The position numbers were made by a program, and so were the translations under genes. This document shows, piece by piece, positions 9,963-55,222 of a stretch of DNA of 64,000 nucleotides. Within the stretch, counting starts at the first letter, position 1, and each line of letters begins with the position of its first letter. The stretch is taken from contig CAJTCS010000003.1 in the NCBI GenBank assembly GCA_910574995.1, forward strand, positions 124,001 to 188,000. Direction: 5' to 3'. The notes beneath the pieces are model-generated. The model did not search any database and was not told the origin of the DNA. It saw only the letters and a program-made list of their open reading frames with translations. Origin of the DNA: Oscillospiraceae bacterium (GTDB lineage: Bacteria; Bacillota; Clostridia; Oscillospirales; Acutalibacteraceae).

Positions 9963-11390
9963 ATGAAGGTTCTGTTTTGTGCCAGTGAAGCCCTCCCCTT
10001 TTCCGCTACAGGCGGCTTGGCGGACGTAGCGGGCTCTTTGCCCCAGGCGCTGCGCGCCCGTCTAATTGGCTGCCGGGTAGTGGTGCCCCTGTACGAGGGC
10101 ATCCCCCAAGAGCTGCGGGACAAGATGAAATTTATCACCAGCATCAGCGTGCCGGTGGCCTGGCGGCGGCAATATTGCGGTATTTTTGAAGCCAAGATCA
10201 ACAATGTGATCTATTACCTGATTGATAACCAGTACTATTTTAAGCGCGGTGGGCTGTACGGGCATTTTGACGATGCCGAGCGGTTCGCGTTCTTCTCCCG
10301 GGCCATCCTGGAGATGCTGCCTTATGTGGATTTTAAGCCTGACGTCATCCATGCCAACGACTGGCAGACCGCCCTGGTGCCTGTGTATTACCGGTTATTT
10401 TATGCCAACAACGAGTGGTATGCCGGCATCAAGACCCTGTTTACCATCCACAACATCCAGTACCAGGGGCAGTATGGCAAGGAGATCCTGGAAGACGTAT
10501 TCGGCATCCCCAATTATGAAAGCCAGCTGCTGGAGTTCAATAAGGATGTGAACCTGATGAAGGGGGCTATCGAGTGCTCCAATTGGGTATCTACTGTCAG
10601 CCCTTCCTATGCCCAAGAGATCTTAGACCCTTGGTTTGCCCATAAGCTAGACCCCATTTTGCGCGAGCGCAGCTGGAAGCTGTCCGGCATTTTGAACGGC
10701 ATCGATACCGTAAACTACGACCCGGAAACAGACTCTAGCCTGTATGCCAATTATAGCCAGGCAAATAAGGCCAATAAAGCGGTAAACAAGGCCAAACTGC
10801 AAGAGCGCCTGTGCATAGAGGTAGACCCGGATGTGCCCATGATCGGTATGGTCACAAGGCTGGTCTCACACAAGGGATTGGATTTGGTGAAGGACGCCGT
10901 AGACAATGTGATGGAATATTCCAACGCCCAGTTTGTGGTTTTGGGCAGCGGCGACCTGGAATACGAAAACTACTTTAAGTGGATGCAGGAGAAGTACCCC
11001 GGCCGGTTTGTGCTATGCCTGGGCTTTGTCCCGGAACTGTCCCGGAAGATCTACGCGGCTTCGGATATTTTCCTGATGCCCAGCAAGAGCGAACCCTGCG
11101 GCCTTTCCCAGATGATTGCCCTGCGGTATGGTTCTATCCCCGTGGTGCGGGAGACTGGCGGCCTGAAGGACTCTATCACGGACAGCGGCGACGGCGTGGG
11201 CAACGGCTTTACGTTCTTGACCTACAACGCTGGGGATATGCTGAACTCTTTACACCGGGCTATCTACGCCTACAATTCGGACAAAGAGGGCTGGGGCGTG
11301 CTGGTAGACCGGGCCATGGGCTGCGACAACAGTTGGGCCAAGTCGGCTGGGGAATACATCCGTTTGTATAAAGAGCTCTTGAAAAACTAA
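9963..11390 (+). CDS. glgA: Glycogen synthase GlgA (GT5)
   Basis: A 475-residue ADP-glucose-dependent glycogen synthase that elongates alpha-1,4-glucan chains. It has the GT5 two-domain GT-B layout: an N-terminal acceptor domain (VLFCASEALPF, ATGGLADVAGSLP, DVIHANDWQTALVP) and a C-terminal nucleotide-sugar domain (GMVTRLVSHKGLDLV, the acidic MPSKSEPCGLSQMIALRYG). The family motif KTGGL reads ATGGL here, a change I cannot interpret. AAGAAAGGAAG precedes the ATG at 9963. It ends the operon, before a strong terminator. Confidence 0.95.
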   Translation: MKVLFCASEALPFSATGGLADVAGSLPQALRARLIGCRVVVPLYEGIPQELRDKMKFITSISVPVAWRRQYCGIFEAKINNVIYYLIDNQYYFKRGGLYGHFDDAERFAFFSRAILEMLPYVDFKPDVIHANDWQTALVPVYYRLFYANNEWYAGIKTLFTIHNIQYQGQYGKEILEDVFGIPNYESQLLEFNKDVNLMKGAIECSNWVSTVSPSYAQEILDPWFAHKLDPILRERSWKLSGILNGIDTVNYDPETDSSLYANYSQANKANKAVNKAKLQERLCIEVDPDVPMIGMVTRLVSHKGLDLVKDAVDNVMEYSNAQFVVLGSGDLEYENYFKWMQEKYPGRFVLCLGFVPELSRKIYAASDIFLMPSKSEPCGLSQMIALRYGSIPVVRETGGLKDSITDSGDGVGNGFTFLTYNAGDMLNSLHRAIYAYNSDKEGWGVLVDRAMGCDNSWAKSAGEYIRLYKELLKN

Positions 11391-11412
11391 AGCTTATATC
11401 TACCCCTTTTCT

Positions 11413-11451
11413 GCCGGGAAAGCCCGCTGTGGCTTTCCCGGCTTTTGTTTT
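11413..11451 (+). terminator. Strong terminator of the glycogen operon
   Basis: GCCGGGAAAGCC and GGCTTTCCCGGC form a perfect 12-bp stem around CGCTGT, followed by TTTTGTTTT. Confidence 0.92.
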
Positions 11452-11476
11452 AAAGTCTTTGGGGCGCAAAAATGCC

Positions 11477-11505
11477 TTGAAGCCAAAATGGGGCCATGGT
11501 ATAAT
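11477..11505 (+). promoter_or_regulatory. Sigma-A-type promoter of the GNAT gene
   Basis: TTGAAG at 11477-11482 and TATAAT at 11500-11505 with an optimal 17-bp spacer, ending 30 bp before the acetyltransferase start. Confidence 0.75.
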
Positions 11506-11535
11506 CAAAAGTAGCTGGGAACGGGGAGGAGTAAA

Positions 11536-12111
11536 ATGGACAGGGATGAAGTACCGGTATACATAAGCCCACGCCCTGGGCTGCTGTTAGAAACAGAGCG
11601 GCTGGCTGTCCGCCCTTTTACGCTGGATGATGTGGACGGGCTGCTCTGCGTCATGTCCCATGCGGCTGTCCACAGCTACACCAAGGATAAGGGTTCCCCC
11701 TGGGACAGGCCGCGGACAGAGGCATACATCCGCGCTGCCATAGGGATGGGCTCTAAAGCGTTGGCGTGCTTCCACGGGGGCGTGGTCGAAAAAAACACCG
11801 GCCGGCTGATAGGGCTATGCGGCCTGAACCCCTATGAGGGACGTAAGCCTGAGATCGAATTTAAACTAGGCGTGCCCTATTGGGGCAAAGGCTATGCAAC
11901 CGAGTTGGGCCGGCAGATTATCAGGGGGGCCTTTGCCACGGCGGAGATCGAGGGTATTTATGGTATCGCACAGCCAGAGAACCTGGCATCCAGAAGGGTG
12001 CTGGAAAAGCTGGGGATGGGATATCTGGGAGAGCGGGTGTTCCGAGGCCATAAAGCCTCGTTTTACTATATCCCCGCTTATGCCAAACAGCCTGGGGCAG
12101 GTAGGTTGTGA
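11536..12111 (+). CDS. GNAT N-acetyltransferase, RimJ/RimL type
   Basis: A 191-residue GCN5-related acetyltransferase. LETERLAVRPFTLDD opens the fold, EFKLGVPYWGKGYATELGR (about residues 112-130) is the acetyl-CoA pyrophosphate-binding motif A, and ENLASRRVLEKLGM follows. This pattern is that of RimJ/RimL-like enzymes, which acetylate ribosomal protein N-termini or small amines; the substrate cannot be read from sequence. GGGAGGAG precedes the ATG, and its own promoter is visible. Confidence 0.88.
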   Translation: MDRDEVPVYISPRPGLLLETERLAVRPFTLDDVDGLLCVMSHAAVHSYTKDKGSPWDRPRTEAYIRAAIGMGSKALACFHGGVVEKNTGRLIGLCGLNPYEGRKPEIEFKLGVPYWGKGYATELGRQIIRGAFATAEIEGIYGIAQPENLASRRVLEKLGMGYLGERVFRGHKASFYYIPAYAKQPGAGRL

Positions 12112-42960: not shown

Positions 42961-43755
42961 ATGAAGAAAATCTTGACCGCCCTTATATCCGCCGCCCTGC
43001 TTATAAGCAGCGCCGGGTGCCAGGTACAACCATCCCATACCGCACAGTCCGCACCGGAACCTGCGCCCCAGGCGCTTGTGCTGAATGTAGACTCGCCCAC
43101 CGATACCAGTGAGAAACACATCGACATGAGCGCCGTCATAGAGCAAATCACGGCTGGTCTAAAGGTCAAGCTGGATACGGCAGAGAAGAAAAAGGAGGTC
43201 ATGCAGGCCGCAAAAGAGGCCCCCAAAGCCTCTCCCAATGCCAAGCAGGAGAAGGCCCAAAAGCCTCAAAACAAGCCGGAAATGCGGCAATCCAGCCCCA
43301 CCGCTGAGCCAAAGCAGGAAACCCCTGCCAGCGAACCAGACGCCTATCTCAAGGTGACCGTGAAAGCCACTCCCACCCCGCCGCCAGTGGCCACGCCTGC
43401 GCCGACACCCGTTCCCACACCGGAGCCGCCAGCCCCAACACCCGCCCCTGCGGAGCCTACCCCAGCCCCGGCAGAACCTACCCCCGAGCCGGTCATAGAG
43501 GAACCTGCCTTCGATATCGGCTACTGGATAGGCTACGCCCAAAGCTGCGCCCAGGGGCTGGGCCTGCGGCTGGAAAGCAGCGCAGTAGACTGCTGGGACA
43601 ACCCCATCGGGGCCGGGCCGCACAGCACCTGCCTGGAGCGGGACATCAGCAGCCGGATGAATAGATATGCAAACGACCCGGATATCACAGACGTGTGGGT
43701 ATGGTACGAATCCACCGGAAATGGCACCTACAACATTTATATCGGGTACGCATAA
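42961..43755 (+). CDS. Proline-rich lipoprotein of the element
   Basis: A 264-residue lipoprotein. The signal MKKILTALISAALLISSAGC has lipobox SSAGC with the Cys at residue 20. A Lys/Glu/Gln-rich part is followed by a Pro/Thr/Ala spacer (repeats of APTPVPTPEP type, about 135-180) that could span the wall, and a C-terminal domain with YWIGYAQSCAQGLGLRLES and DITDVWVWYESTGNGTYN. No catalytic motif is evident. ATG 42961 has AAGAAAGG 9 nt upstream. It precedes the adhesin gene, with a terminator between. Confidence 0.75.
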   Translation: MKKILTALISAALLISSAGCQVQPSHTAQSAPEPAPQALVLNVDSPTDTSEKHIDMSAVIEQITAGLKVKLDTAEKKKEVMQAAKEAPKASPNAKQEKAQKPQNKPEMRQSSPTAEPKQETPASEPDAYLKVTVKATPTPPPVATPAPTPVPTPEPPAPTPAPAEPTPAPAEPTPEPVIEEPAFDIGYWIGYAQSCAQGLGLRLESSAVDCWDNPIGAGPHSTCLERDISSRMNRYANDPDITDVWVWYESTGNGTYNIYIGYA

Positions 43756-43780
43756 GAACAAAAAAGAACACTAACACCAA

Positions 43781-43811
43781 GCGCACTGTGAAACCACAGT
43801 GCGCTTTTTTT
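43781..43811 (+). terminator. Terminator between lipoprotein and adhesin genes
   Basis: GCGCACTGTG and CACAGTGCGC form a perfect 10-bp stem around AAAC, followed by T7. The adhesin start is 31 bp later, so attenuation is possible. Confidence 0.88.
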
Positions 43812-43841
43812 GTTGCCCAAATGGGCAGAAAAGGAGAGAAT

Positions 43842-46712
43842 ATGACATCTACTGTTAAGCGGAAAAGCACAGCGCTGGTCATGGCCTTGCTCATGTGCTT
43901 TTCCATGTTCGTCAGCTTCGGCACTACTGCCCAGGCCGCCGGAGAACGCTCGGAAATCTATATGGTTTCCTTTCCCCGTGACGCGGAAACCAACCGCGAC
44001 CATTGGGACCGGGACAACCTCCAGTTCATGAACGGCTGGTATATGGACGCTTATGATATGTTCGCCACGTTCGCGGTCGGTTCCTATGAGGGCAAGGTGG
44101 CGTACTGCATTGAGCCGGGGACTCCTATCGACAACGCCCACACCTTTACGGCGAAGGACGAAACCTTTTGGGATAATTACCCCTCATCCCTCAACAAGAC
44201 TATCGATGCCGACACCATTAAATCTCTTATTGGTCGGATTTTGCAGTACGGCTACACCGGCAATATCGACCCGACCTGGGTATCTCAGAACAGCGCTGGG
44301 GCCGAAAAGCTGGCCCATGTGTACGCCACGCAGCTCTTGATTTGGGAAACCATTGTGGGTGAAAGGGATGAGCAGTTCGGCCACGTCAGCACCGGCGGGA
44401 AAAATCCTGTGCTTGATTTCATCAAGCCTGGGCATCCTCTGCGCTCCCGGATCATGGACAAGTATAACTCCATGGTTACCAGTGTACAGAACCACAGCAA
44501 AGTGCCATCCTTCATGGCGAAAAGCCGGGGTAAGGCTCCCACTGTCGAACTGGAGTGGGACGGCAACCAGTACACCGCCTCGCTGACCGACACCAATAAG
44601 GTGCTGGGGAATTACACCTTCACTTCCGATTATAGCGCAATGAAGTTCACCACCAGCGGGAATGTGTTGACAATCACATCCCCCACCGCACCCACCGGGA
44701 ACGTGACCGTCAGCGCCAGCAAAAGGGATTCCAAGCGCATGGGCCTGGTTGTGTGGGACGATGGAACCTTCGGCCCCGGCGTGGGCCAGCAGAACACGGT
44801 CACCTATACGCAGTCCGTCACAGACCCCATTGCTGCTTACCTGAAACTCAATGTTTCTTACGGCTCCGCCAAAATCATCAAGACCTCCGAGGATGGCAAG
44901 GTGGAGGGTATCACCTTCCGCATCACCGGCAACGGCATCGATCAGACCGTCACCACCAACAGCCGGGGCGAGGTGCAGATCGATAACCTCCAGCCGGGCG
45001 AATACACCGTCACAGAGCAGGTGTCCGGCGATTACGTCCCCCAAGAGCCGCAGAAAGTGACTGTCCAGGCCGGGCAGACGGCGACTGTCGGTTTTAACAA
45101 CAGCTTGCAGAAAGGCTCCCTGACCGTCACCAAAAATAGTGAGGACAGCTTGAATTCTGGTGTTCGGTTCCATCTGTATGGAACTTCCAGTATGGGTAAA
45201 ACTGTGGATTTGTACGCAACCACCAATAGCTCTGGTGTGGCGCAGTTCACCGATGTGCCTATTGGCAGCGGGTACACCCTGGAGGAAGTGGACACGGCAA
45301 TCCGCTATGTGGTACCTGCCACTCAGACCGCCAATATCGAGTGGGAGAAAGCCACCAACGCCACCTTCCGCAACGTCCTCAAGAAGTTCAATATCACTCT
45401 GAACAAGGTGGACGGCGAGACCGGCACTCAGCAGGGCGACGCCACTCTCGCAGGCGCTGTGTACGGCGTGTATAAGGACGGCGAACTGGTGGACACCTAC
45501 ACCACAGACAGCGAAGGTCACTTCACTACCAGCTACTATGTGTGCGATTCCGGTTGGACTGTGCAGGAGATCAGCCCCAGCGAGGGGTACCTGCTGGATG
45601 AAACCGCCTACCCCGTGGGCGCTGACCCCAAGCAGTATGAAGTGGAGTTCAATTCGGCTCCCGTCCTGGAAAGCCCTGAGACCGTGCAGAAGGGCAAAAT
45701 CACCATCATCAAGCATTGTGACGATGGCTCCACCCAAATAGAAACCCCCGAAGTCGGTGCGGAATTTGCCGTATTCCTGAAGTCCTCCGGCGGCTATGAT
45801 AACGCCAAGGAATCTGAGCGCGACTACCTGACCTGCGACGAGAACGGCTATGCGGAAACCAAGCTGCTACCCTATGGCGTTTACACTGTGCGCCAGACCA
45901 AGGGCTGGGATGGCCGCGAGCTCATGAAGGACTTCGACGTGTTCATCAACAAAGACGGCGGCGTGTACCGCTATCTCATCAACAATGCTCCCTTCACCAG
46001 CTACGTCAAAGTGATAAAGACCGATGCGGAAACTGGCATGGCCATCCCCTACGCCGGGGCCGGGTTCCAGATTTACGACCCCAATGGGCAGCTCGTTACC
46101 ATGCGGTTCACCTACCCGGCAGTCACCACTATCGATACCTTCTACACCACCAATGACGGCACGCTCATTACACCGGAATCCCTCCCCTACGGCACAGGCT
46201 ACTCCCTGGTGGAAGTGCAGGCTCCTTACGGCTATGTGCTGAACTCAGGGCCTGTCTATTTTGACATCACCCCAGACAATTCCACCGAGGAAAGTGCTGT
46301 CACCGTGGTAGAGGTAGAGCGGCCTAATATGCCGCAAAAGGGTACCATCTCTATCACCAAGCTGAGTGAGGTGTTCTCCTCCGTGACTGCTCTGGGCGGC
46401 AGTTCGGTTGACGAGGATGGAAACGAGGTTGACCTGCCTGTCAGTTATCAGCCGGTCTACGAGGAAAAGCAGTTGGCGGGCGCGGTCTATGAGGTAACAG
46501 CCGCCGAGGATATCGTCACCCCGGACGGCACCTTGCGCTATGCTGCGGGCGAGGTGGTATCCACCCTTACCACCGCCCAGGACAGCCCTGTTGCCACCGA
46601 ACCCCTCTACCTGGGGAAGTACCAGGTGAAGGAAGTGGAGGCCCCGTTTGGCACCGTGTTGGACACGGATACTAAGCTTAACCAGTTACCTAAACCTAGA
46701 CAAATGGTCTGA
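43842..46712 (+). CDS. Thioester-domain/SpaA-type surface adhesin, C-terminally truncated
   Basis: A 956-residue secreted protein. A signal peptide (about 1-32, ending TTAQAA) is followed by a TQXA thioester domain: Cys89 in AYCIEPG and Gln164 in ATQLLIWET, which can form an internal thioester that binds host surfaces covalently. Then come at least five SpaA/Cna-B-like repeats (KIIKTSEDGKVEGITFRITG, LTVTKNSEDSLNSGVRFHLY, ITLNKVDGETG...LAGAVYGVYKDG, VKVIKTDAETGMAIPYAGAG, ISITKLSEVF...LAGAVYEVTA), with Lys and Glu placed for isopeptide bonds. The chain stops at QLPKPRQMV without LPXTG or membrane anchor, so the 3-prime end is probably lost at an element junction. Confidence 0.88.
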   Translation: MTSTVKRKSTALVMALLMCFSMFVSFGTTAQAAGERSEIYMVSFPRDAETNRDHWDRDNLQFMNGWYMDAYDMFATFAVGSYEGKVAYCIEPGTPIDNAHTFTAKDETFWDNYPSSLNKTIDADTIKSLIGRILQYGYTGNIDPTWVSQNSAGAEKLAHVYATQLLIWETIVGERDEQFGHVSTGGKNPVLDFIKPGHPLRSRIMDKYNSMVTSVQNHSKVPSFMAKSRGKAPTVELEWDGNQYTASLTDTNKVLGNYTFTSDYSAMKFTTSGNVLTITSPTAPTGNVTVSASKRDSKRMGLVVWDDGTFGPGVGQQNTVTYTQSVTDPIAAYLKLNVSYGSAKIIKTSEDGKVEGITFRITGNGIDQTVTTNSRGEVQIDNLQPGEYTVTEQVSGDYVPQEPQKVTVQAGQTATVGFNNSLQKGSLTVTKNSEDSLNSGVRFHLYGTSSMGKTVDLYATTNSSGVAQFTDVPIGSGYTLEEVDTAIRYVVPATQTANIEWEKATNATFRNVLKKFNITLNKVDGETGTQQGDATLAGAVYGVYKDGELVDTYTTDSEGHFTTSYYVCDSGWTVQEISPSEGYLLDETAYPVGADPKQYEVEFNSAPVLESPETVQKGKITIIKHCDDGSTQIETPEVGAEFAVFLKSSGGYDNAKESERDYLTCDENGYAETKLLPYGVYTVRQTKGWDGRELMKDFDVFINKDGGVYRYLINNAPFTSYVKVIKTDAETGMAIPYAGAGFQIYDPNGQLVTMRFTYPAVTTIDTFYTTNDGTLITPESLPYGTGYSLVEVQAPYGYVLNSGPVYFDITPDNSTEESAVTVVEVERPNMPQKGTISITKLSEVFSSVTALGGSSVDEDGNEVDLPVSYQPVYEEKQLAGAVYEVTAAEDIVTPDGTLRYAAGEVVSTLTTAQDSPVATEPLYLGKYQVKEVEAPFGTVLDTDTKLNQLPKPRQMV

Positions 46713-46727
46713 GCGCAAAACTTTTCG

Positions 46728-46756
46728 TTGACAACATCCCCTGCCAGGAATATGCT
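46728..46756 (+). promoter_or_regulatory. Possible sigma-A promoter after the truncated adhesin
   Basis: TTGACA at 46728-46733 and TATGCT at 46751-46756 with a 17-bp spacer. It reads toward the LytTR regulator. Confidence 0.45.
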
Positions 46757-46771
46757 ATATCTGCCGCCAAA

Positions 46772-46841
46772 AACATTTCGTGACGGATTTCCAACATTTC
46801 ATTACAAATAGGTTGTCTCTTTGCCGTCTTTTTGTTAACCT
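46772..46841 (+). promoter_or_regulatory. LytTR-type direct repeats and promoter of the AgrA-like gene
   Basis: AACATTTCGTGAC at 46772-46784 and AACATTTCATTAC at 46793-46805 repeat at 21-bp period, the geometry bound by LytTR regulators. A weak promoter, TTGTCT at 46813-46818 and TAACCT at 46836-46841 (17-bp spacer), follows. The first repeat begins exactly 41 bp before the -35 box, as at the second site (54071). Confidence 0.65.
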
Positions 46842-46859
46842 AAAAACAGGGTGATATGC

Positions 46860-47570
46860 ATGATAAAGTTTGCTATCTGCGATGACGAGCCACAGATGGC
46901 CCGAGAAATTGTGGATCAGCTTGCAGGCTATATGAAGGAAACGGACTGTGACTATTCGGTTGACTGTTTCTCCAGTGGGTATGCGCTGCTGAAGTCCTCA
47001 GATGAATTTGATGTTATTTTTCTGGACATCCAGATGGAGCGTCCGGACGGGATGGAAACAGCCGCGCTCCTGCGGCAGCGTGAAAGCCGCAGTCTGCTGA
47101 TTTTCGTGACGGTGCTGAAAGATCGCGTGTTTGATGTGTTCCCGCTGGAAACTTTCGATTACTTGCTCAAGCCCCTGGATAGGGATCGGTTCAGGCGGAC
47201 AATGGACCGGGCCTTGCGCTGGCTACAACAGGACGCGGCAAAAAGTCTTGTGATACAGCGGGGTTCTGACTGCCAGGTCGTTTCTCTCTCTGACATCGTG
47301 TATTGCGAGGTGCTGGGCAGGAAAATTTACATCCACAAAAAGGATGGTACTGTTTTGGACTACTATGACAGGCTGGAGGATTTAGAACAGCGCGTGGATA
47401 GCCGCTTTTTCAAGTGCCACCGCAGCTACCTTGTGAATCTGGACTATGTGGGAGGGTGCCAAGATGGGCAGGTCCTGCTGTCCCAGGGAGAGCGCATCCC
47501 GGTTTCGCGGCTGCGGGAGCGGGAATTGACGCAAGCCCTTTTGCGCCGCATGAAAGAGGGGGAAGCTTGA
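46860..47570 (+). CDS. LytTR response regulator (AgrA/VirR type)
   Basis: A 236-residue regulator. The receiver domain has ICDDEPQMARE, phosphoacceptor Asp56 in VIFLDIQMERPDGME, and the conserved Lys in YLLKPLDRDRF. The C-terminal LytTR domain has IVYCEVLGRKIYIHKKDG, FFKCHRSYLVNLDYV and IPVSRLRERELTQALL. Such regulators answer GHKL kinases that sense peptides or membrane stress. It is translationally coupled to the kinase (stop and next start 2 bp apart). Two sites with the expected DNA geometry occur at 46772 and 54071. Confidence 0.93.
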   Translation: MIKFAICDDEPQMAREIVDQLAGYMKETDCDYSVDCFSSGYALLKSSDEFDVIFLDIQMERPDGMETAALLRQRESRSLLIFVTVLKDRVFDVFPLETFDYLLKPLDRDRFRRTMDRALRWLQQDAAKSLVIQRGSDCQVVSLSDIVYCEVLGRKIYIHKKDGTVLDYYDRLEDLEQRVDSRFFKCHRSYLVNLDYVGGCQDGQVLLSQGERIPVSRLRERELTQALLRRMKEGEA

Positions 47571-47571
47571 T

Positions 47572-48846
47572 ATGGACTACTTCAGTTTCTTTTTGGACGG
47601 CCTGAGTCTGATTGGGCAGGGCGTGATGCATATATTCTTTGTCGGTCGTCTCACCGGGAAAAAGCAGAAGTTCCGGCATTTTGCACTCTACTGTTTCATG
47701 ATTACTGTCATTCATGTCCTTTCACTTCGCCTGGCACTGAATGGGATGCTTGCCGTTGGTGCGGGCGTGTTGGCACTATATGTGGTCAGCCGATTTGCAC
47801 TGGGGAACCAGCGTCCCATTTCCTGGCTGGCGGCTGTGCTGGGTTTCTATGTTTCCCAGCTCTCCTTTGGTATCATAAACTCATTGCAAGATGCTTTTTT
47901 CTTAAAATTGATTGGAGATCCGCTACTGTACCCACTGCTTCTGGTGGCGCAGCTCCTTTTCTTTGTGCTGTGCGCTGGCTGTTACCGGATGGTACGCAGG
48001 TTTCTACAGTGGACAGAGGATGACCAGACACCCTATATCGGATTGCTGTTGTTCCCCATCTTGTTTTTCTTTGCCGCAGAGCTTTATATCCGACAGAGCG
48101 CTTACGGCGCTTACTACCCGGCAATCTCATTCAATGAATTTGAGGCCCATGGCGCACTGCTGTTCCTGCAAATCATGGGGCTGGCGGCGATGCTGTGCAT
48201 CTTGTATGCCTACCGTCAGCTCTGCCAGGGATTTCAGGCCAAGGCGGAGCTGCAGTCCCTGACCCAGGCGTCCCAGGCCCAAAAAGTCTACATTGCTGAG
48301 GCCCAGGCCCGCTATGAACAGACGAAATCCTTCCGCCACGATATCAAGAACCATCTATCCGTGCTGGACGGCCTGCTTAAGAATGAAAAGCTGGAGGAGG
48401 GCCGAGAGTACCTTGGAAAGCTGGAAACGGTTTCTGAGGCATTGTCCTTCCCCTACCAGACCGGCAACCCGGTGGTGGATATTCTGCTGGGAGAAAAGCT
48501 GGGGCTGGCCAAAGAGATTACGGCAGAGGTGTCCCTGGTTTTGCCCAACCCCTGCGGGATTGACGACTTTGACCTGTGTGTGCTCTTCGCCAACGTCCTG
48601 GACAATGCCATTACCGCCTGCCGCGCCCAGGACGGAGCAAAATCCATACGCATCAGCGGCAAGCGTCAGGGAGATTTCTATATGCTGACCTTTGAGAACA
48701 CCTGCGCCGATGAGCCCCTTCCCCCGGCGGGCACCGGGTTATCCAACATCCGGGTGGTGGTGGAGAAGTACCATGGGGCCGTGCTGACGGAGAAAGCGGG
48801 AAGGCGGTTTTCGCTGAATGTGCTGCTGAATGTCGCGGCTGTGTAG
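47572..48846 (+). CDS. GHKL sensor histidine kinase (AgrC type)
   Basis: A 424-residue kinase. About six membrane helices fill the first 220 residues, as in AgrC-type peptide receptors. A coiled linker leads to FRHDIKNHLSVLDGLL with phosphorylated His256, then a GHKL ATPase with NVLDNAITACRAQ (N box) and GTGLSNIRVVVEKYHG (G box). It is the cognate partner of the preceding LytTR regulator. No agrB/agrD-like pair is in the window, so the signal is unknown. Confidence 0.93.
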   Translation: MDYFSFFLDGLSLIGQGVMHIFFVGRLTGKKQKFRHFALYCFMITVIHVLSLRLALNGMLAVGAGVLALYVVSRFALGNQRPISWLAAVLGFYVSQLSFGIINSLQDAFFLKLIGDPLLYPLLLVAQLLFFVLCAGCYRMVRRFLQWTEDDQTPYIGLLLFPILFFFAAELYIRQSAYGAYYPAISFNEFEAHGALLFLQIMGLAAMLCILYAYRQLCQGFQAKAELQSLTQASQAQKVYIAEAQARYEQTKSFRHDIKNHLSVLDGLLKNEKLEEGREYLGKLETVSEALSFPYQTGNPVVDILLGEKLGLAKEITAEVSLVLPNPCGIDDFDLCVLFANVLDNAITACRAQDGAKSIRISGKRQGDFYMLTFENTCADEPLPPAGTGLSNIRVVVEKYHGAVLTEKAGRRFSLNVLLNVAAV

Positions 48847-48863
48847 AGGAATGGAGGGACTTC

Positions 48864-49070
48864 ATGAGTAAATACGAAGCCCTGTGGGCCTATGTGCAAA
48901 AAGATGGAAGCCCGACCCTCAAATTGACCTTTGCGCAAATCCAGGAAATCGCGGGGGTTCCCATTGACCACTCGTTCCTGAGATACAAAAAGGAATTGAC
49001 GGACTACGGGTATCAGGTGGGAAAAATCTCCATGCGGGAGCAGACGGTTGTTTTTCAAAGGAGCGTTTAG
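48864..49070 (+). CDS. Small conserved cytosolic protein (possibly DUF7662)
   Basis: A 68-residue protein: SKYEALWAYVQKDGSPTLKL, FAQIQEIAGVPIDHSFLRYK and TDYGYQVGKISMREQTVVF. I recognise this as a small family of unknown function, possibly the one called DUF7662, found singly in many Clostridia; it may be a short DNA-binding wing. ATG 48864 has AATGGAGGGACTTC upstream and follows the kinase by 18 bp, so it is in the same transcript. Confidence 0.6.
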   Translation: MSKYEALWAYVQKDGSPTLKLTFAQIQEIAGVPIDHSFLRYKKELTDYGYQVGKISMREQTVVFQRSV

Positions 49071-49125
49071 GGGCCGGGGTTGCGCTATAATCAAAGCGGT
49101 AAACTGGAATTTACAGGAGGAAAAC

Positions 49126-49971
49126 GTGAAAGTTAAAAGGTGCGTAAAGGGGCGGCGCTTGTGCTTTGCAATATTCGCAATTTGCCTCTCGGCTAGGTTT
49201 ATAGAGTATTTTTTAATTGAAACAGACAAAACGGCGATTGGAGAAAATGTGCTTCACAAAGCCGTCGGAATTATTCTATTGGCAGTGGTATTAAAACGTA
49301 CAAACCTGACATGGAGCGATATTGGATTTCAAAGGAACGGCTTTGCAATCGGTGTTCTGAAAGGCTTGTCATTGGGAACGGTTTGCTTTGCGATTGCATA
49401 TGGCCTTGAATTTGCCATTCTGTCCCTGCAAGGCAATCCCGCGCATTTTGAACTATATGTCAGCGGTTTTTCATTGACCGGCTCTCCCATAAAGAATACC
49501 GATTTCCTTTTCTTCGGGTTATGCCTGTTCTTTAATGCCATCAATGTGTGGATGGAGGAGGGCGTTTTCCGAGGACTGTTTATAAAGATGCTTTCTGAAA
49601 CAAAGCCCTTTATGACAGCTAATTTTATTGCCGCGTTTCTATTTGGCATTTGGCACATTGTTATGCCGATCAGAAGCTATATAAACGGGGAAATGCCATT
49701 TGCGGAAATGATTCTGATGAGTATTGGTTATGTGATCCTTGCCGGAATTATGGGAATCAAATGGGGGCTTCTTAACCGCATGACAGGGAATATATGGGTT
49801 GGGCTTGGCGACCATCTGTTCAATAATACCGTCGCTGCCAATATGCTGCATGTGGTTTCCGGGGCGGGTGCGGACGAAATGCAAATTGTCCGCATTATGG
49901 CTGCGCAGCTTATTTCATTCGTATTCGTCTTGATTCTTTACTGCCGTAAACAGAACAGTAACAACGTCTAA
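49126..49971 (+). CDS. CPBP family intramembrane glutamic endopeptidase (first of three)
   Basis: A 281-residue membrane protein. NVWMEEGVFRGLF (Glu144-Glu145) with Arg four residues on, then FGIWHIV and GLGDHLFNN, are the four CPBP (Abi/Rce1) motifs. Members process prenylated or peptide substrates, and in Gram-positives many give immunity to bacteriocins. The start is GTG 49126 with AGGAGG 6 nt upstream. The sequence is AT-richer than its neighbours, suggesting separate acquisition. Confidence 0.88.
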   Translation: MKVKRCVKGRRLCFAIFAICLSARFIEYFLIETDKTAIGENVLHKAVGIILLAVVLKRTNLTWSDIGFQRNGFAIGVLKGLSLGTVCFAIAYGLEFAILSLQGNPAHFELYVSGFSLTGSPIKNTDFLFFGLCLFFNAINVWMEEGVFRGLFIKMLSETKPFMTANFIAAFLFGIWHIVMPIRSYINGEMPFAEMILMSIGYVILAGIMGIKWGLLNRMTGNIWVGLGDHLFNNTVAANMLHVVSGAGADEMQIVRIMAAQLISFVFVLILYCRKQNSNNV

Positions 49972-49986
49972 TTTGTGGAGGACAAT

Positions 49987-50502
49987 ATGAAAATCAGACT
50001 GGTAAGACCTACGGAGCAATTAAAGGAACAGGCAATCAAATTCAGGCAAGAATTCTTCGACAACCATGAGATGGTAATAAACGGAAGTGAGCTGTTTGAT
50101 AAAACAGAACAGTACGAGGATTGGCTGAAAGCTGTGACCGCTAATACAAATATAGAAACAGTAAACGCCAGCTGGGTGGTCACGGATACCTTTTTTGCTG
50201 TGGATGAAAAAGACAAGATTGTTGGTATTATCGATTTAAGGCATACGTTGAATGACTTTTTGAAAGATTTAGGGAATTGCGGCTACAGCGTACGCCCTTC
50301 TGAACGGAGAAAAGGGTATGCAACAGAAATGCTCCGGCTGCTGCTGCCGATTGCAAAAAATGCAGGAATGAAAGAGTTGTATTTGTCTGTTGAACGGGAC
50401 AATGAAGCCTCTATTAAAACAATCGTAAAAAATGGTGGAAAGCATGAACGGAGTTTTGAATTTGAGGGTAAGCAAGCGGACATATATAAGATCATTTTAT
50501 AA
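49987..50502 (+). CDS. GNAT acetyltransferase
   Basis: A 171-residue GNAT enzyme: MKIRLVRPTEQLKEQAI, then FFAVDEKDKIVGIIDLRH, the acetyl-CoA loop YSVRPSERRKGYATEMLRL and LSVERDNEASIKTIVKNGG. The substrate is unknown; relatives include amino-acid and aminoglycoside-type acetyltransferases. GTGGAGGACAAT precedes ATG 49987, 15 bp after the CPBP gene. AT-rich like that gene, so the two may have travelled together. Confidence 0.87.
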   Translation: MKIRLVRPTEQLKEQAIKFRQEFFDNHEMVINGSELFDKTEQYEDWLKAVTANTNIETVNASWVVTDTFFAVDEKDKIVGIIDLRHTLNDFLKDLGNCGYSVRPSERRKGYATEMLRLLLPIAKNAGMKELYLSVERDNEASIKTIVKNGGKHERSFEFEGKQADIYKIIL

Positions 50503-50563
50503 ACTTCGATTCATCAGGCACCTATCCCCAGAGGATAAGCGCCTCTTCAAGGAGGAAACTGTT

Positions 50564-50740
50564 ATGCGTCATGTCTATATTCGTGGTATCCTGGCTCTGA
50601 TCTGGCTGGCGGCGGCGGTCGTCAGCGGCGTATCCGGTAATCTGGAGTGGGCCGGGCTCTATGTCCTGATGGGGGCGGCCTTCGGGTATTCCGCCTGGGC
50701 CTCCTGGAAAAAGGCAAAGGACGATAAGAGGGGGAACTAA
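50564..50740 (+). CDS. Small two-helix membrane protein ahead of the ABC transporter
   Basis: A 58-residue protein with two hydrophobic helices (IRGILALIWLAAAVVSGV and WAGLYVLMGAAFGYSAWASW) and a basic C-terminus. A strong AAGGAGGAAACT site precedes the ATG. It ends 2 bp before the ABC ATPase gene, so it is likely an accessory subunit or a leader cistron. It has no double-glycine leader, so it does not look like a classical bacteriocin precursor. Confidence 0.7.
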   Translation: MRHVYIRGILALIWLAAAVVSGVSGNLEWAGLYVLMGAAFGYSAWASWKKAKDDKRGN

Positions 50741-50742
50741 CC

Positions 50743-51450
50743 ATGGGCGGGAACATCCTGGAGCTGCAAAATCTCAGCGCCTGGTACAGCCAGGGGAAAA
50801 ACGTGCTGTCCGGCTTCTCTCTCCAGCTGCGGCCCCATGAAGTGGTGGGGCTGATCGGCCTGAATGGGGCCGGAAAGACCACCTTTTTGAAAACCCTGTC
50901 CGGCCTGCATGAGGGGTTCCGCTGTGACGGCATCCGCCTGCATGACCGCCCGGTATCTTTCCGGGACAAGGACTTCAAGCTGAGCAGGTACACCGTTTTT
51001 TCCGAGGACAACTCCTTCCAGTATTTCACCTTCCGGGAATACCTGTCCTATGTGGCGGCGGCGTACAAGACGAAACTGCCGGACGTGACGGAGCCGGTGC
51101 GGGGCTTTCACTTTGAGGACTACACCGACACCCTGCTGAAAGACCTGTCCACCGGCAATAAGAAAAAAGCGTTTCTGATTACCGCCTTCACCCTGAAGCC
51201 GGAACTGCTTCTGCTGGACGAGCCGGTGAACGGGCTGGACTTCCAGAGCACGGAGTACCTGTACCAACTGATCGCCGGGTACAAGAAGTACGGGACGGTC
51301 CTGTTCTCCTCCCACATCCTGGAGAGCATCACCCTGACCTCTGACCGGGTGTTGGTGTTGGAGAACGGGCAGATCCGGCGGAGCTTTGTGGGCAGTCAAA
51401 TCCATGCGGACACAATTCGGGAGGCCCTGCATGAGAAAAATGAGCTTTGA
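50743..51450 (+). CDS. ABC transporter ATP-binding protein
   Basis: A 235-residue ATPase: GLIGLNGAGKTTFLKTLSG is Walker A (about 37-55), ELLLLDEPVNGLD is Walker B and D-loop, and SSHILESI holds the switch histidine. The signature motif is LSTGNKKKAFL rather than LSGGxxQR, as in exporters of the BcrA/CcmA-like group. It overlaps the permease gene by 20 bp. With the permease it forms an exporter of unknown substrate, possibly a peptide, given the LytTR/GHKL pair upstream. Confidence 0.92.
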   Translation: MGGNILELQNLSAWYSQGKNVLSGFSLQLRPHEVVGLIGLNGAGKTTFLKTLSGLHEGFRCDGIRLHDRPVSFRDKDFKLSRYTVFSEDNSFQYFTFREYLSYVAAAYKTKLPDVTEPVRGFHFEDYTDTLLKDLSTGNKKKAFLITAFTLKPELLLLDEPVNGLDFQSTEYLYQLIAGYKKYGTVLFSSHILESITLTSDRVLVLENGQIRRSFVGSQIHADTIREALHEKNEL

Positions 51451-52450
51451 TATAACCGCCAAAAAGCTGTTTGGGGCCAGATATGAGCGGCTGACCCGGA
51501 CGCTTTTTCTGGATGTCGTGGTGTTTTGGGGGCTGCATATCAGCGGATTCCAGATACATATCTCCCCTTTTGTTCTGTTCCTAATGGCCAGCGCCTTCTC
51601 AGCTGGCGTTATGTGGCAGGCGCTTTCCTCTGAGGATAACCGGGAAAACCTCAAAAACGCGTTCATGCTCCCCTTTGAGGGGCGCAGTCTGATTTTTCCC
51701 TATGTAACTGCCCTGGGAGCATACACCCTGCTGACCAAGACCGCTGGACTGCTGGCCGTGGCTTGGGCGGTTTCCCGCTGGAGCTGGGTGGAGATTTTGG
51801 AAAGCGTCCTCTGCGCCTTGGCCGCTATTGTGGTGGTGTCCTGTCTCTATCCCCTGCGCCTGGGACGTACAGACGCCTATGCTTTCTACGTCAGACCCGA
51901 AGGCCGCAGGCAGACAGCCAAAGTCCACCGGCATCACTCCCTATGGCGCTATCTGTTCCGCTACCTGATAGCCCACAAGAATTATCTGCTCAACACGGCG
52001 GCTATGTGGGGCGTGGCCTGCGTCCTGCCGGTGCTGCTGGGCCAGATGGAGGCCCGGTTCGTCCTGCCCATCGGCTTTGCTATCCTCTCCCTGAACACAC
52101 CTCTCTGCATCCTGCTGTCCTGCGACCCGGCTCTGGAGCGGGTGGTGCGGTTCCTGCCAGGACAGGGTCGTGCGTTCTGCCTCCCCTACTGCCTGTTCAT
52201 CTTTGTTTGCAACCTGGCTGCGAGTATTATTTTCCTATGCAGCTGGCAAATTGGGATTGGCGGAGTTATTCCTCTCCATGTTATAACAGCAATCTCCTTT
52301 GCCCTATTGAGCGCAATCGGATCCGTACTGTTGGAGTGGTACTGCCCTATCCGGGGGTGGAAAACCGAAAGCGATCTCTGGCACCACCCCAGGAAATATG
52401 TTGTGCCTGCTGCCATGCTTCTGCTGGCCGGGCTGGTGAGTATGTTCTGA
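51431..52450 (+). CDS. ABC transporter permease partner
   Basis: About 339 residues with eight or more hydrophobic segments (for example VVFWGLHISGFQIHISPFVL and GVACVLPVLLGQMEARFVLP). I do not recognise a named family; length and context suit an ABC-2-type membrane subunit. ATG 51431 lies inside the ATPase gene, with 51440 as alternative. A terminator follows immediately, so this ends the run that starts with the LytTR regulator. Confidence 0.75.
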   Translation: MRKMSFDITAKKLFGARYERLTRTLFLDVVVFWGLHISGFQIHISPFVLFLMASAFSAGVMWQALSSEDNRENLKNAFMLPFEGRSLIFPYVTALGAYTLLTKTAGLLAVAWAVSRWSWVEILESVLCALAAIVVVSCLYPLRLGRTDAYAFYVRPEGRRQTAKVHRHHSLWRYLFRYLIAHKNYLLNTAAMWGVACVLPVLLGQMEARFVLPIGFAILSLNTPLCILLSCDPALERVVRFLPGQGRAFCLPYCLFIFVCNLAASIIFLCSWQIGIGGVIPLHVITAISFALLSAIGSVLLEWYCPIRGWKTESDLWHHPRKYVVPAAMLLLAGLVSMF

Positions 52451-52457
52451 AACAATT

Positions 52458-52497
52458 TTCTGCCTGGGCGGACAGGATCGCTCGGGCAGAATTTTTT
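52458..52497 (+). terminator. Terminator of the LytTR/ABC operon
   Basis: TTCTGCCTGGGCG and CGCTCGGGCAGAA pair over 13 bp with wobbles, followed by T6. Confidence 0.82.
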
Positions 52498-52540
52498 CAA
52501 AAAGACAGACTGCTGTAACATTTCGCGGACATTTCTCTGT

Positions 52541-52690
52541 TATACTGATAAGCGCCGAGCCGTCGTGAGCAGCGCGGATGGACCGGAGCGAGGGCGAGCG
52601 ATGGGGCTGAAAGCCCCAGAGACCAGCCCGAGTCGGAGGGAAGCCGCGCGTCGCGAACAGGCGAGGCGTGAGAACAGGAGCCAAAAGGAG
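52541..52690 (+). other. GC-rich 150-nt leader before the OmpR-type gene
   Basis: A possible -10, TATACT at 52541-52546, is followed by about 140 nt very rich in GAGCG/GGCGAGCG-like words, with a compact hairpin TGGGGCT-GAA-AGCCCCA near 52610. No reading frame is convincing and it differs sharply in composition from its surroundings. It ends at the AAAAGGAGG ribosome site of the regulator. It may be a structured leader RNA, but I do not recognise a class. Confidence 0.35.
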
Positions 52691-52698
52691 GACAAGCC

Positions 52699-53367
52699 AT
52701 GAAACGGATACTGATCGTCGAGGATGACGCCCTTTTGAATAAGACACTGGCCTACAACCTGATTTCCGACGGCTGGGAGGTCACACCGGCCCTGAACGCC
52801 AAAACCGCCGCCGCCCTGCTGGCCGGTATGGAATACGACCTGGTGCTGCTGGACATCAATCTGCCGGACGGTGATGGCTATGACCTGTGCAGATTGATCA
52901 AACCGGAGCACCCTGACACGGTGGTGATCTTCCTCACCGCTAACGACCAGGAGTGCGATCAGCTCCGGGGCTATGAGGCGGGGGCGGTAGACTACATCAC
53001 CAAGCCCTTCTCTATTGGGGCTTTGCAGCGGAAAATCCGCGCCATGTTCGCCATGCTGGAGCACCACAAACCAGCAAAGGATCTCTACGACGACGGCAGG
53101 CTGTTCCTGGACTTCTCGGAACAGTCCGCCACCTTGAACGGGAAGCCAATCGCCCTCTCTTCCATGGAGTACAAGATGCTGTACCTGTTCTGTAAAAATC
53201 CGCGCCAGGTCCTGACCCGGCAGCGGCTCCTGGAGCGGCTGTGGGACGTGGACGAGAAATTTGTGGACGAACACACACTGACCACCTCCATCAGCCGCAT
53301 CCGGGGAAAGATCGAGGCGGAGGGCGACACCTATCCTGGTCTTTATCTTTGTGTTCTCTCTAATTAA
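52699..53367 (+). CDS. OmpR-family response regulator, C-terminus truncated
   Basis: A 222-residue regulator. The receiver is intact: LIVEDDALLNK, Asp52 in VLLDINLPDGDGYD, ITKPFS. The winged helix proceeds normally through LSSMEYKMLYLFCKNPRQVL and DEHTLTTSISRIRGKIEAEG, but after GDTY the expected final wing (Ile-Lys-Thr-Val-x-Gly-x-Gly-Tyr) is replaced by PGLYLCVLSN. From there the DNA reads, in another frame, as a permease transmembrane helix. So a deletion near 53,333 removed the regulator end, any kinase and most of a transporter. DNA binding is probably impaired. Confidence 0.8.
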   Translation: MKRILIVEDDALLNKTLAYNLISDGWEVTPALNAKTAAALLAGMEYDLVLLDINLPDGDGYDLCRLIKPEHPDTVVIFLTANDQECDQLRGYEAGAVDYITKPFSIGALQRKIRAMFAMLEHHKPAKDLYDDGRLFLDFSEQSATLNGKPIALSSMEYKMLYLFCKNPRQVLTRQRLLERLWDVDEKFVDEHTLTTSISRIRGKIEAEGDTYPGLYLCVLSN

Positions 53368-53719
53368 CCTTGCCAACACCCTGATTACCAATCTGCTCAC
53401 CCGCCAGCAGGAGTTCGGCGTGTTCCAGTCCGTGGGCATGAGCGGCCGGCAGCTAAGCAACATGCTGTCCTTCGAGTGCCTGTACTATGTGGGGATCACG
53501 CTGCTGATTACCCTGACCCTGGGGACGGCGTGCAGTATGGCCGTGTGCCGGGTATTCGACCGGATCGGTATGTTCGGGACGCTCACCTATCATTTCCCGG
53601 TGCTCCAGGTGCTGTTGTTCGGGGCCGCACTGTTGCTGGTGCAGGGGGTGTTCTCGGTATGTGCGGTCCGCTATACCAGAAGGCTGTCTCTGGTGGAGCG
53701 AATCAAGGCGGCGGACTGA
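53351..53719 (+). pseudogene. C-terminal fragment of an FtsX-like ABC permease (first)
   Basis: About 122 residues from a chance GTG: LINLANTLITNLLTRQQEFG, FQSVGMSGRQLSNMLSFECL, two further membrane helices and the end YTRRLSLVERIKAAD. This is the C-terminal core of a MacB/BceB-like permease. In the same frame the preceding codons (53333-53350) read ILVFIF, completing the first helix, before the sequence becomes that of the response regulator. It has no ribosome site and is a deletion remnant. Confidence 0.8.
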
Positions 53720-53741
53720 CCCCGCCTGAAATAGAACGATT

Positions 53742-54062
53742 ATGAGGAGGTATGCCAGCATCCTGCGCTCCGTCGGCCTGACTGGAATGCAGCTGTGTCA
53801 GATGAACATTTGCGAAGGGCTCTGCTATGCGGCCTTTGCCGCCCTGGCTGTCCTGCTGATCGGACTTCCGATTGCGGTGGTGTGCCGGGAGGTCAGCAGA
53901 CGATCCTTCGCTGGTGAAATCGTGCCCTATCAATTCCCAATTCTTGAAATGAGCTTGTTTATCCTGGCGCTGTTCAGCCTGGAATTTTTGTTGTCCGCCT
54001 GGACAGTCAGCAGGCAGAGAAAGCTGTCCTTGATCGAGCAGATGCGGGAGATGAGATTGTGA
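53742..54062 (+). pseudogene. C-terminal fragment of an FtsX-like ABC permease (second)
   Basis: About 106 residues: RRYASILRSVGLTGMQLCQM, NICEGLCYAAFAALAVLLIG and the end SRQRKLSLIEQMREMRL. It is homologous to the first fragment but clearly diverged, so these are the tails of two different permeases, not a duplication of one tail. The ATG at 53742 falls at the RR(E/Y)-type motif inside the normal domain, so the N-terminal part is missing. Probably non-functional. Confidence 0.7.
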
Positions 54063-54070
54063 TCTTACAG

Positions 54071-54140
54071 AACATTTCATGACATCCAGAGAGCATTTCA
54101 TTGCAAAAGCCTTGAAACCGTATTTTGTGCAAACTAAAAT
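54071..54140 (+). promoter_or_regulatory. Second LytTR-type direct repeat pair and promoter
   Basis: AACATTTCATGAC at 54071-54083 and AGCATTTCATTGC at 54092-54104 repeat at 21-bp period. The promoter TTGAAA at 54112-54117 and TAAAAT at 54135-54140 (17-bp spacer) follows. The first repeat starts 41 bp before the -35 box, identical to the site at 46772. It drives the coiled-coil gene pair. Confidence 0.7.
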
Positions 54141-54192
54141 GATGAGAGTGGGAGTTTCCACAAAAATACTACTATTGAAAGGAGGCGCAAGC

Positions 54193-54666
54193 ATGAACGT
54201 ACAAATGATGGATGGACTCCTGGGTGCCAGCTCCAATATCAGGCTGGCGGGTACGCCCATGAGCGTGTACCGCCAGGCCAGCGCTGAGGGCGACACAGAA
54301 AAGATGAAGCGAGCGCTGGGCTATACCAGCGAGTGCACCGAGAAGGCCGCCAAGTACCAGGAGAAGCTGGACGAGGGCATGAAAGCTGAGGCAAAAGATC
54401 AGCGGGAAAAGGCCAAGCTGGAGCAGGAAGCCGCCATCGAAAAGCGCCGGGAGGAACACAAGCGTGTTGAGGAAAGCACAGAATCGAACCGCCCCCTGGA
54501 AACCGACCAGGTCCAAATCAGCGAGGCGGCGAAGGCGGCGCTGAAGGACAGCCAGCCAGTGGATGCTGCGGAACCGGTTTCCAGTGAGCCGGTCACCTAC
54601 ACGCCGAGCGGAGAGGTTTCAGCCGTTCCGGCAGAAACAGAACCCAGTGTTTCATTTTCTGCATAA
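54193..54666 (+). CDS. Coiled-coil protein of unknown function, first of a pair
   Basis: A 157-residue hydrophilic protein with no signal peptide or membrane segment. MNVQMMDGLLGASSNIRLAG is followed by PMSVYRQASAEGDTEKMKRA, a charged helix (about 50-100, rich in Glu, Lys, Gln) and a tail containing ETDQVQISEAAKAAL, a segment that resembles flagellin- or FlgM-like short helices. I know no function for it. GAAAGGAGG precedes ATG 54193. It is the first gene downstream of the second LytTR-type site and is followed 21 bp later by its partner, so the two are an operon. Confidence 0.75.
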   Translation: MNVQMMDGLLGASSNIRLAGTPMSVYRQASAEGDTEKMKRALGYTSECTEKAAKYQEKLDEGMKAEAKDQREKAKLEQEAAIEKRREEHKRVEESTESNRPLETDQVQISEAAKAALKDSQPVDAAEPVSSEPVTYTPSGEVSAVPAETEPSVSFSA

Positions 54667-54687
54667 TATTTTAAGGAGGAATATCTT

Positions 54688-55155
54688 ATGACACCAATTT
54701 CTGGCTTGAACAACGAAGCGATCCGCTCCCTGGCCGCTCCTGAGAAGACACAGGGCGCGCCCAAGGTCCAGAAACCCGAGGAGCCTCAGATCTGCCACCC
54801 GAAAGCCATGATGGATGAATACGTCCCCGAGGAACCGGGAGAGCCCTCCGGTCGCTACTGGATGGGCAAGGATGAGGAGGGGCAGCCCAAAATTCATTTC
54901 GACGACCCGGAGAAGGCGGCGGGCGCGCCAAAAAAGCCGGAGGAAAAATGGGTCTGCGACACTGGTAAGGTTGACCGGGAAATCGAAAAGCTTAAAAAGA
55001 AGCAGCAGGAGCTGAAACAGCAGTTGGGCACCGAGACCAACGAGGCCAGAATCAAAGAGCTGGAACGCCAGCTGGCCCAGGCGGAACAGGAACTCAGTGA
55101 AAAAGACAACGATACCTACCGCAAACAGCACTCTACATTCACGCAGATCTCATAA
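54688..55155 (+). CDS. Coiled-coil protein of unknown function, second of a pair
   Basis: A 155-residue hydrophilic protein. The N-terminal half is Pro/Glu-rich (DEYVPEEPGEPSGRYWMGKD, then KIHFDDPEKAAG). The C-terminal half is a strong coiled coil: KVDREIEKLKKKQQELKQQL, then RIKELERQLAQAEQELSEKD. It ends with NDTYRKQHSTFTQIS. No signal peptide and no known domain. AAGGAGG precedes the ATG at 54688. The shared operon and LytTR-type control suggest it acts with the preceding protein. Confidence 0.75.
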   Translation: MTPISGLNNEAIRSLAAPEKTQGAPKVQKPEEPQICHPKAMMDEYVPEEPGEPSGRYWMGKDEEGQPKIHFDDPEKAAGAPKKPEEKWVCDTGKVDREIEKLKKKQQELKQQLGTETNEARIKELERQLAQAEQELSEKDNDTYRKQHSTFTQIS

Positions 55156-55222
55156 TCCTTCTAAGAGATAAGTGCGCGAAGCCACTGTCTATCAAATAAT
55201 GTACTATCTGAGAGAGGTTTTT

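Follow-up and report, generated by a model that had tools for sequence, protein, structure and literature searches.

Paired 13-bp repeats predict a LytTR regulon with a coiled-coil protein operon in an Oscillospiraceae genome

The window analysed here, a stretch of 64,000 nucleotides from an Oscillospiraceae bacterium, encodes a two-component system, consisting of a response regulator with a LytTR domain and a sensor kinase, and an operon for two coiled-coil proteins, here called CC1 and CC2 (Table 1). An earlier note on this DNA had described two pairs of 13-bp direct repeats with a 21-bp period, in each of which the first repeat starts exactly 41 bp before the -35 box of a promoter with 17-bp spacing, one pair preceding the LytTR gene and the other the two-gene coiled-coil operon 7 kb away. 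All of these particulars were found again, and apart from these four repeats the window has no exact match to A[AG]CATTTC[AG]T[GT][AG]C. Counted from the first repeat, both -35 boxes lie at +41 and both -10 boxes at +64. Genomes and loci are designated below by G and L numbers, G000 being the window's own genome and C3, C5, C6, C9, and C17 its contigs.

Table 1. Regulatory elements and genes of the predicted LytTR regulon (positions are those of the window)
Feature	Position	Strand	Basis or remark
Upstream promoter TTGACA-N17-TATGCT, probable basal promoter	46728..46756	+	Consensus scan
Repeat 1, LytTR-operon pair	46772..46784	+	Pattern search
Repeat 2, LytTR-operon pair	46793..46805	+	Pattern search
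-35 TTGTCT, 17 bp, -10 TAACCT (weak)	46813..46841	+	Not reported by consensus scan
Response regulator, receiver and LytTR DNA-binding domain	46860..47570	+	Pfam PF00072 49.7 bits, PF04397 65.1 bits
Sensor kinase, GHKL ATPase domain, AgrC/VirS layout	47572..48846	+	Pfam PF14501 57.7 bits
Repeat 1, coiled-coil operon pair	54071..54083	+	Pattern search
Repeat 2, coiled-coil operon pair	54092..54104	+	Pattern search
-35 TTGAAA, 17 bp, -10 TAAAAT, coiled-coil operon	54112..54140	+	10/12 in consensus scan
CC1, 157 aa	54193..54666	+	One long predicted helix (35-97), low-confidence tail
CC2, 155 aa	54688..55155	+	Two long predicted C-terminal helices

The regulator exceeds the cut-offs of both Pfam families listed for it and the kinase that of PF14501 (22 bits); a SPOB_a match of the kinase falls below its cut-off. 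With these domains and with paired repeats close to the -35 box, the predicted regulon is like those of VirR, RgaR, and AgrA in its way of working. Tests for an agr locus by agrB and the AgrA equivalog (agrD was not searched) came out negative: no agrB gene lies beside the module, the genome's sole two AgrB matches being on contigs C5 and C6, and the regulator reaches 54.9 bits with the AgrA equivalog model NF046049, against a cut-off of 400. The description of the regulator as AgrA-like, made in the earlier note, holds for its domain layout and fails for AgrA identity.

Single 13-mers with up to two mismatches are not enriched in the window (17 versus 13.9 expected), so the signal resides in the pairing. 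Promoter-like matches in the region likewise show no excess in the consensus scan (6 versus 6.1 in shuffles). Between the LytTR and coiled-coil sites the spacers and flanks diverge, with the repeats, the period, and the +41 offset preserved. The degenerate pair occurs four times in the whole 3.45-Mb genome at up to two mismatches and still four times at up to three, compared with none for a reversed control; the possibility that many unrelated copies are scattered through the genome is thereby rejected. In a sample of 398 genomes from the family, only G000 (four) and G217 of the same genus (two) have pairs with up to two mismatches, and matches with three mismatches, one apiece in 11 further genomes versus five control matches, are near background.

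The other two pairs lie outside the window and add a further site and a paralogous regulator to the account in the earlier note. One of them (C9:132907) precedes a second, paralogous LytTR-kinase pair (L006:9996-10706 and 10699-11982); the genome holds eight LytTR genes, and such a site fronts just those of C3 and C9. The other (C3:190632, or L005:6633) lies 2.6 kb to the right of the window, after two ABC-transporter-like open reading frames (ORFs), and is followed by TTGAAA at +41 and TAAGAT 17 bp later, with no plausible ORF behind. A strong hairpin (z -2.9), which the terminator scan does not report, is predicted about 90-135 nt past this pair, and the same ORF-less arrangement recurs in G399 with 96.6% identity over 502 bases. 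The segment L005:6633-6850 (G000:C3:190632-190849) may be the promoter of a small RNA, or a promoter that has lost its gene; Agr- and Vir-type systems are described as generally driving regulatory RNAs (PMC10602386). No Rfam family reaches its gathering score on the site, and two miRNA-family matches, below gathering score (best E 0.0026) and more than 400 bases away, were rejected as chance.

Ten genomes with relatives, nine of them distinct (G217 and G398 are apparent duplicates), were compared, and the conservation in relatives on which the earlier note had staked its proposal was found ahead of both gene sets. Relatives of the regulator occupy eight loci (L021-L028, 63-100% identity), a ninth, L029, having been set aside because its match spans 38 residues only, and the pair precedes the gene in seven of the eight. 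The offset of the -35 box is exactly +41 in L026 and L027, which share only 63-64% identity with the regulator, and +43 in L024. With a slightly wider pattern and up to two mismatches, the ten genomes yield 18 distinct pairs, 16 of them before LytTR or coiled-coil genes and two of the ORF-less type; behind one of the 16 (G404) lies a coiled-coil ORF of 106 aa with no CC2 match. The pair accompanies every one of the six distinct full-length copies of CC1, some 90 bp ahead of the ATG, and it is absent ahead of the truncated CC1 on C17 and of a 43-residue CC1 remnant in G400. The C17 locus (G000:C17:165-1070) holds a second CC2 gene beside its N-terminally truncated CC1. A weaker pair with three mismatches (L024:6127), with TATCAT at +64, fronts genes for an OmpR-like regulator and ABC-transporter-like proteins, and is a possible further target.

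In a second family, f31, the CC2 profile matches in 25 of 348 genomes; among genomes of the class it matches in 3 of 382 (for CC1, 4 of 391). In 19 of 27 f31 regions the kinase gene ends no more than 400 bp before a coiled-coil gene starts, and in 17 of the 19 a LytTR gene is also seen (in L136 and L138 as a fragment only). Of the remaining eight, two (L116, L140) start close to contig ends, two (L126, L139) have intervening genes, one (L131) has its kinase downstream, and three (L122, L137, L141) lack a visible kinase within the stretch fetched. The order regulator-kinase-coiled-coil is also found outside the 27, in L026, L071, and L080, and in L026 and L027 the repeat pair stands between the kinase and the coiled-coil gene. 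Since the kinase so often lies directly before the coiled-coil gene in f31, an ancestral regulator-kinase-coiled-coil operon was probably split in the window's lineage, each half keeping its own box.

For a test independent of the original pattern, a 13-column matrix was trained on eight sites from outside f31 and run on 63 upstream regions (from the 27 f31 regions and L026, L027, L028, L071, L080, and L086), each with 200 dinucleotide shuffles; some of these loci, such as L122 (same contig as in G405), were already known from the pattern search. All shuffles were beaten by 18/30 CC2, 9/25 LytTR, and 2/8 CC1 regions, or by 16/27, 6/19, and 2/6 in f31 alone. A TTG stands at +41 in 21 of these 29 regions, and none of the other offsets between +34 and +45 has one. 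With a cut-off of 15 bits the matrix finds 19 pairs in 191,576 f31 bases on both strands, all in upstream regions of the module and none elsewhere, the former being windows of 260 bp that make up about 13.5 of the 383 kb scanned.

The repeats fall into dialects that track the clades of LytTR regulators, with repeats that end in ATTAC/ATGAC (window type) or in ACAGC or that are of a CCGTTTATGAC type; the last (L080, L134) was judged by eye, and under the strict test only the CC1 pair of L134 holds up. In 13/13 loci showing both a LytTR and a coiled-coil site, the two agree at base 10 of repeat 1, a count that takes in single sites with p up to 0.02 and related loci rather than 13 independent events. 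It is T in the window, G401, L026, L027, L124, and L130, and C in L117, L118, L121, L123, L125, L127, and L071; at base 10 of repeat 2 the T loci may have any of the four bases. Regulators of the third clade have AKRRY at the place where others have SRLRE or SRLRS. The dialect-matched clades offer material for studying how LytTR domains read DNA.

Taken together, these data make it highly probable that both pairs are binding sites of the window's predicted LytTR regulator, which would drive CC1-CC2 and act on its own operon. The kinase would phosphorylate the regulator, one molecule of which would sit on each repeat, both facing the same side of the helix, 7 bp upstream of the -35 box. At the CC1-CC2 promoter the bound regulator would recruit RNA polymerase, activation being suggested by the examples of VirR, RgaR, AgrA, and PlnC. 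Acting on its own operon, it may either activate the weak promoter next to the repeats or block the stronger one upstream, whose transcript should begin just ahead of them. The regulator, kinase, CC2, and often CC1 would thus form one conserved module, its ancestral operon having been interrupted by the cargo of a probable mobile island. The recombinase-like ORFs in L005, as judged from their sequence, and the patchy distribution suggest such an island; no conjugation genes were identified for it.

Several observations weigh against this proposal. L028 shows no pair ahead of its LytTR gene, and the nearly identical L021, L022, and L023, counted among the eight relatives, are not independent evidence. 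G402 has regulator and site, with only a distant CC2 lacking a detected pair. The strict matrix threshold is missed by 16/25 LytTR, 12/30 CC2, and 6/8 CC1 upstream regions, some CC1 genes sitting behind CC2 and therefore needing no promoter of their own, and in L120, L132, L133, and L138, for example, a CC2 site is present and no LytTR site was detected. At lower thresholds the matrix also finds matches outside the upstream regions: 2 of 23-25 at 10-12 bits, and 5 versus 28 upstream at 8 bits. Finally, the LytTR promoter of the window (TTGTCT-N17-TAACCT) is itself weak and has a better one a short way upstream, and autoregulation may therefore be positive or negative. The claim that the regulator controls both itself and the coiled-coil pair accordingly survives in its core, through rarity, conservation, adjacency, and dialect agreement, and is less secure as regards self-activation.

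The same promoters raise the alternative that the regulator activates the coiled-coil operon and represses its own: bound downstream of the consensus TTGACA-TATGCT promoter, from which transcription would start about 9 bp before repeat 1, it could block elongation. The same upstream elements are visible in L021, L022, L023, L025, and the C9 paralogue, and were not seen in the sequence inspected ahead of L024, L026, and L027 (that of L026 does not reach beyond the pair). Several divergent loci do preserve the +41 promoter, in many cases with an improved -10 box (TATTCT, TATAAT), and activation is therefore favoured as the ancestral mode; we regard repression as a serious alternative on the unlikely side.

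That the pairs are bound instead by the C9 paralogue or one of the other six LytTR proteins seems improbable. The genome does hold eight LytTR genes, and the C9 paralogue, which is likely to cross-bind the window sites, is fronted by the same type of site. Yet the site type in relatives follows the clade of the adjacent regulator, no LytTR gene of the genome other than those of the window and C9 is so fronted, and two of the others (on C5 and C6) have agrB genes less than 2 kb away. It is very improbable that the likeness is a mere by-product of duplication and mobility, a 34-bp element having spread with the island without functioning at both places: recombinase-like ORFs do lie to the right and near relatives are almost identical, but the repeats, period, and offset are kept where spacers and flanks differ, even in divergent loci of f31, and where the dialect shifts, the sites of one locus shift together.

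Returning to the predicted regulon and its outputs, CC1 (its ATG start chosen for the AGGAGG ahead of it) finds a match in neither Pfam nor NCBIfam at E <= 0.01, and CC2 matches no family above any curated cut-off. Searches of Pfam, NCBIfam, PHROGs, and, for CC2 only, PDB sequences gave weak cross-matches and no family. Structure models reached a pLDDT of 70 for CC1 (single sequence) and 63 for CC2 (two sequences), and a blastn search of a plasmid collection with 53900-55200 returned no matches. CC1 and CC2 thus represent two uncharacterised protein families, named here as outputs of a regulon. No description of the module was found among the titles and abstracts listed first (10-15 per search) in the open-access literature searched; if the proposal is right, it is a compact regulon complete with sites, regulator, kinase, and outputs, from a two-component family lacking a description in that literature.

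Among known LytTR systems, VirR carries a LytTR domain, VirS is AgrC-like, and the VirR repeat consensus differs from the window repeats. The VirS-VirR system of Clostridium perfringens is represented by a 34-position matrix, and its regulon includes VR-RNA and reaches plasmids (PMC2838878); its targets are toxins and VR-RNA, whereas that of the window module would be the coiled-coil pair. For RgaS-RgaR of Clostridioides difficile, critical bases are reported at -72 and -51, 21 bp apart, and the targets reported include the two-gene hypothetical-protein operon CD0587-CD0588 and the small RNA SpoZ (PMC10602386). With a transcription start 7 nt past the -10 box, base 5 of the window repeats would fall at -72 and -51, but the critical base, G in the C. 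difficile spoZ promoter, is T in the window repeats; the two-gene target is a likeness by gene number and hypothetical status only. The agr system of Staphylococcus aureus also drives a regulatory RNA, RNAIII (PMC10602386), and differs from the window in the spacers of its P2 and P3 promoters, given as 18 and 20 compared with 17 bp (PMC4227749), as well as in the AgrB and AgrA features treated above. PlnC/PlnD of Lactobacillus plantarum is reported to use 9-bp repeats with a 12-bp spacer, directly upstream of the -35 box, at several operons of one locus; the 21-bp period abutting the -35 box is shared with the window, while the consensus (TACGTTAAT) and the bacteriocin targets differ (PMC2714321).

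A lead of a different kind connects the module with flagella. FlhA is present in 36/36 genomes tested (in pieces on different contigs or frames in G803 and G1119), all of which were picked for carrying a relative of the regulator or of a coiled-coil protein, so that the rate refers to carriers only; the set leaves out G398 and G1077, which seem to duplicate G217 and G405, as well as the weakly matching G523. In G666 a CC1-like gene (L081:5617-6036) directly follows genes that in sequence resemble fliW, csrA, fliD, and fliS.

Promoters add a second strand to this lead. The consensus reported for sigma-28 (FliA) is TAAA at -35 and MCGATAa at -10 (PMC3720852), and loci with the ACAGC or the third dialect have TAAA or TAAC, 14-16 bp, and GCCGAAAA or similar at the coiled-coil promoter place; the LytTR promoters of L117, L118, L123, and L071 read TTGTT[TA]-17-TATAAT. 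Sigma-28 scores of 9-11/12 occur at +41 or +42 in L117, L118, L121, L123, L125, L127, L132, L134, L135, and L071, individually weak (p 0.003-0.27 versus mononucleotide shuffles) and supported by their common position. L131 scores only 8/12, an 11/12 match also fronts the unrelated-type LytTR gene of L139, and the window promoters do not fit the consensus. The best FliA_WhiG scores are bimodal, at 257-274 bits in 16/36 genomes and 201-232 bits in 20/36. The high-scoring genomes hold L117, L118, L121, L125, L127, L132, L134, L135, and L080, and the TTGAAA-type loci, that of the window included, sit in low-scoring genomes with the exception of L120 (G1021); L071, L123, and L131 combine a partly degenerate sigma-28-like promoter type with a low score.

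Stretches around flagellar clusters were less encouraging. The CC1 and CC2 profiles match nothing in 14 flagellar-cluster loci, the sole CC1 match being L081, itself part of the profile, and a regular expression found no flagellin in these loci (8 genomes) or in L081. Two TAAA-N15-GCCGATAT matches in flagellar stretches (L159, L160) appear from their translations to lie inside other genes, and the lone TTGAAA-N16-TATACT match (L155) precedes a helix-turn-helix regulator. These results slightly lowered the probability that we assign to the extension given next. The flagellar link is a lead rather than a result because all 36 genomes are carriers and the flagellar stretches fetched hold no CC1 or CC2. 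Our tentative and rather doubtful extension is an undescribed flagellum-linked unit, in which a LytTR regulator with a dialect of its own (T for the critical G) would switch on the coiled-coil pair in flagellated gut bacteria only, from sigma-28-type promoters in one lineage and sigma-A-like promoters in that of the window, with the island carrying the circuit and the candidate small RNA between species. If true, CC1 and CC2 would be flagellar accessory or export-related proteins; the lead itself suggests that LytTR signalling and flagella may be connected in gut bacteria, an idea open to checking.

Near CC2 genes, L126, L139, and L086 contain a divergent type of LytTR-kinase pair together with small proteins bearing SVSVT-type stretches, which may belong to a broader LytTR-associated class of proteins in f31. 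In the window, a gene for a large surface protein with SpaA and thioester domains (43695-46712) ends directly before the LytTR promoter, and the interval between the regulator and the coiled-coil genes encodes a CAAX-type protease, acetyltransferase-like and ABC-transporter-like proteins, an OmpR-type regulator (52699-53367), and a C-terminal fragment of an FtsX-type permease (53351-53719). The fragment lies upstream of the coiled-coil operon and overlaps the end of the OmpR-type regulator gene, an overlap that is likely a recombination scar.

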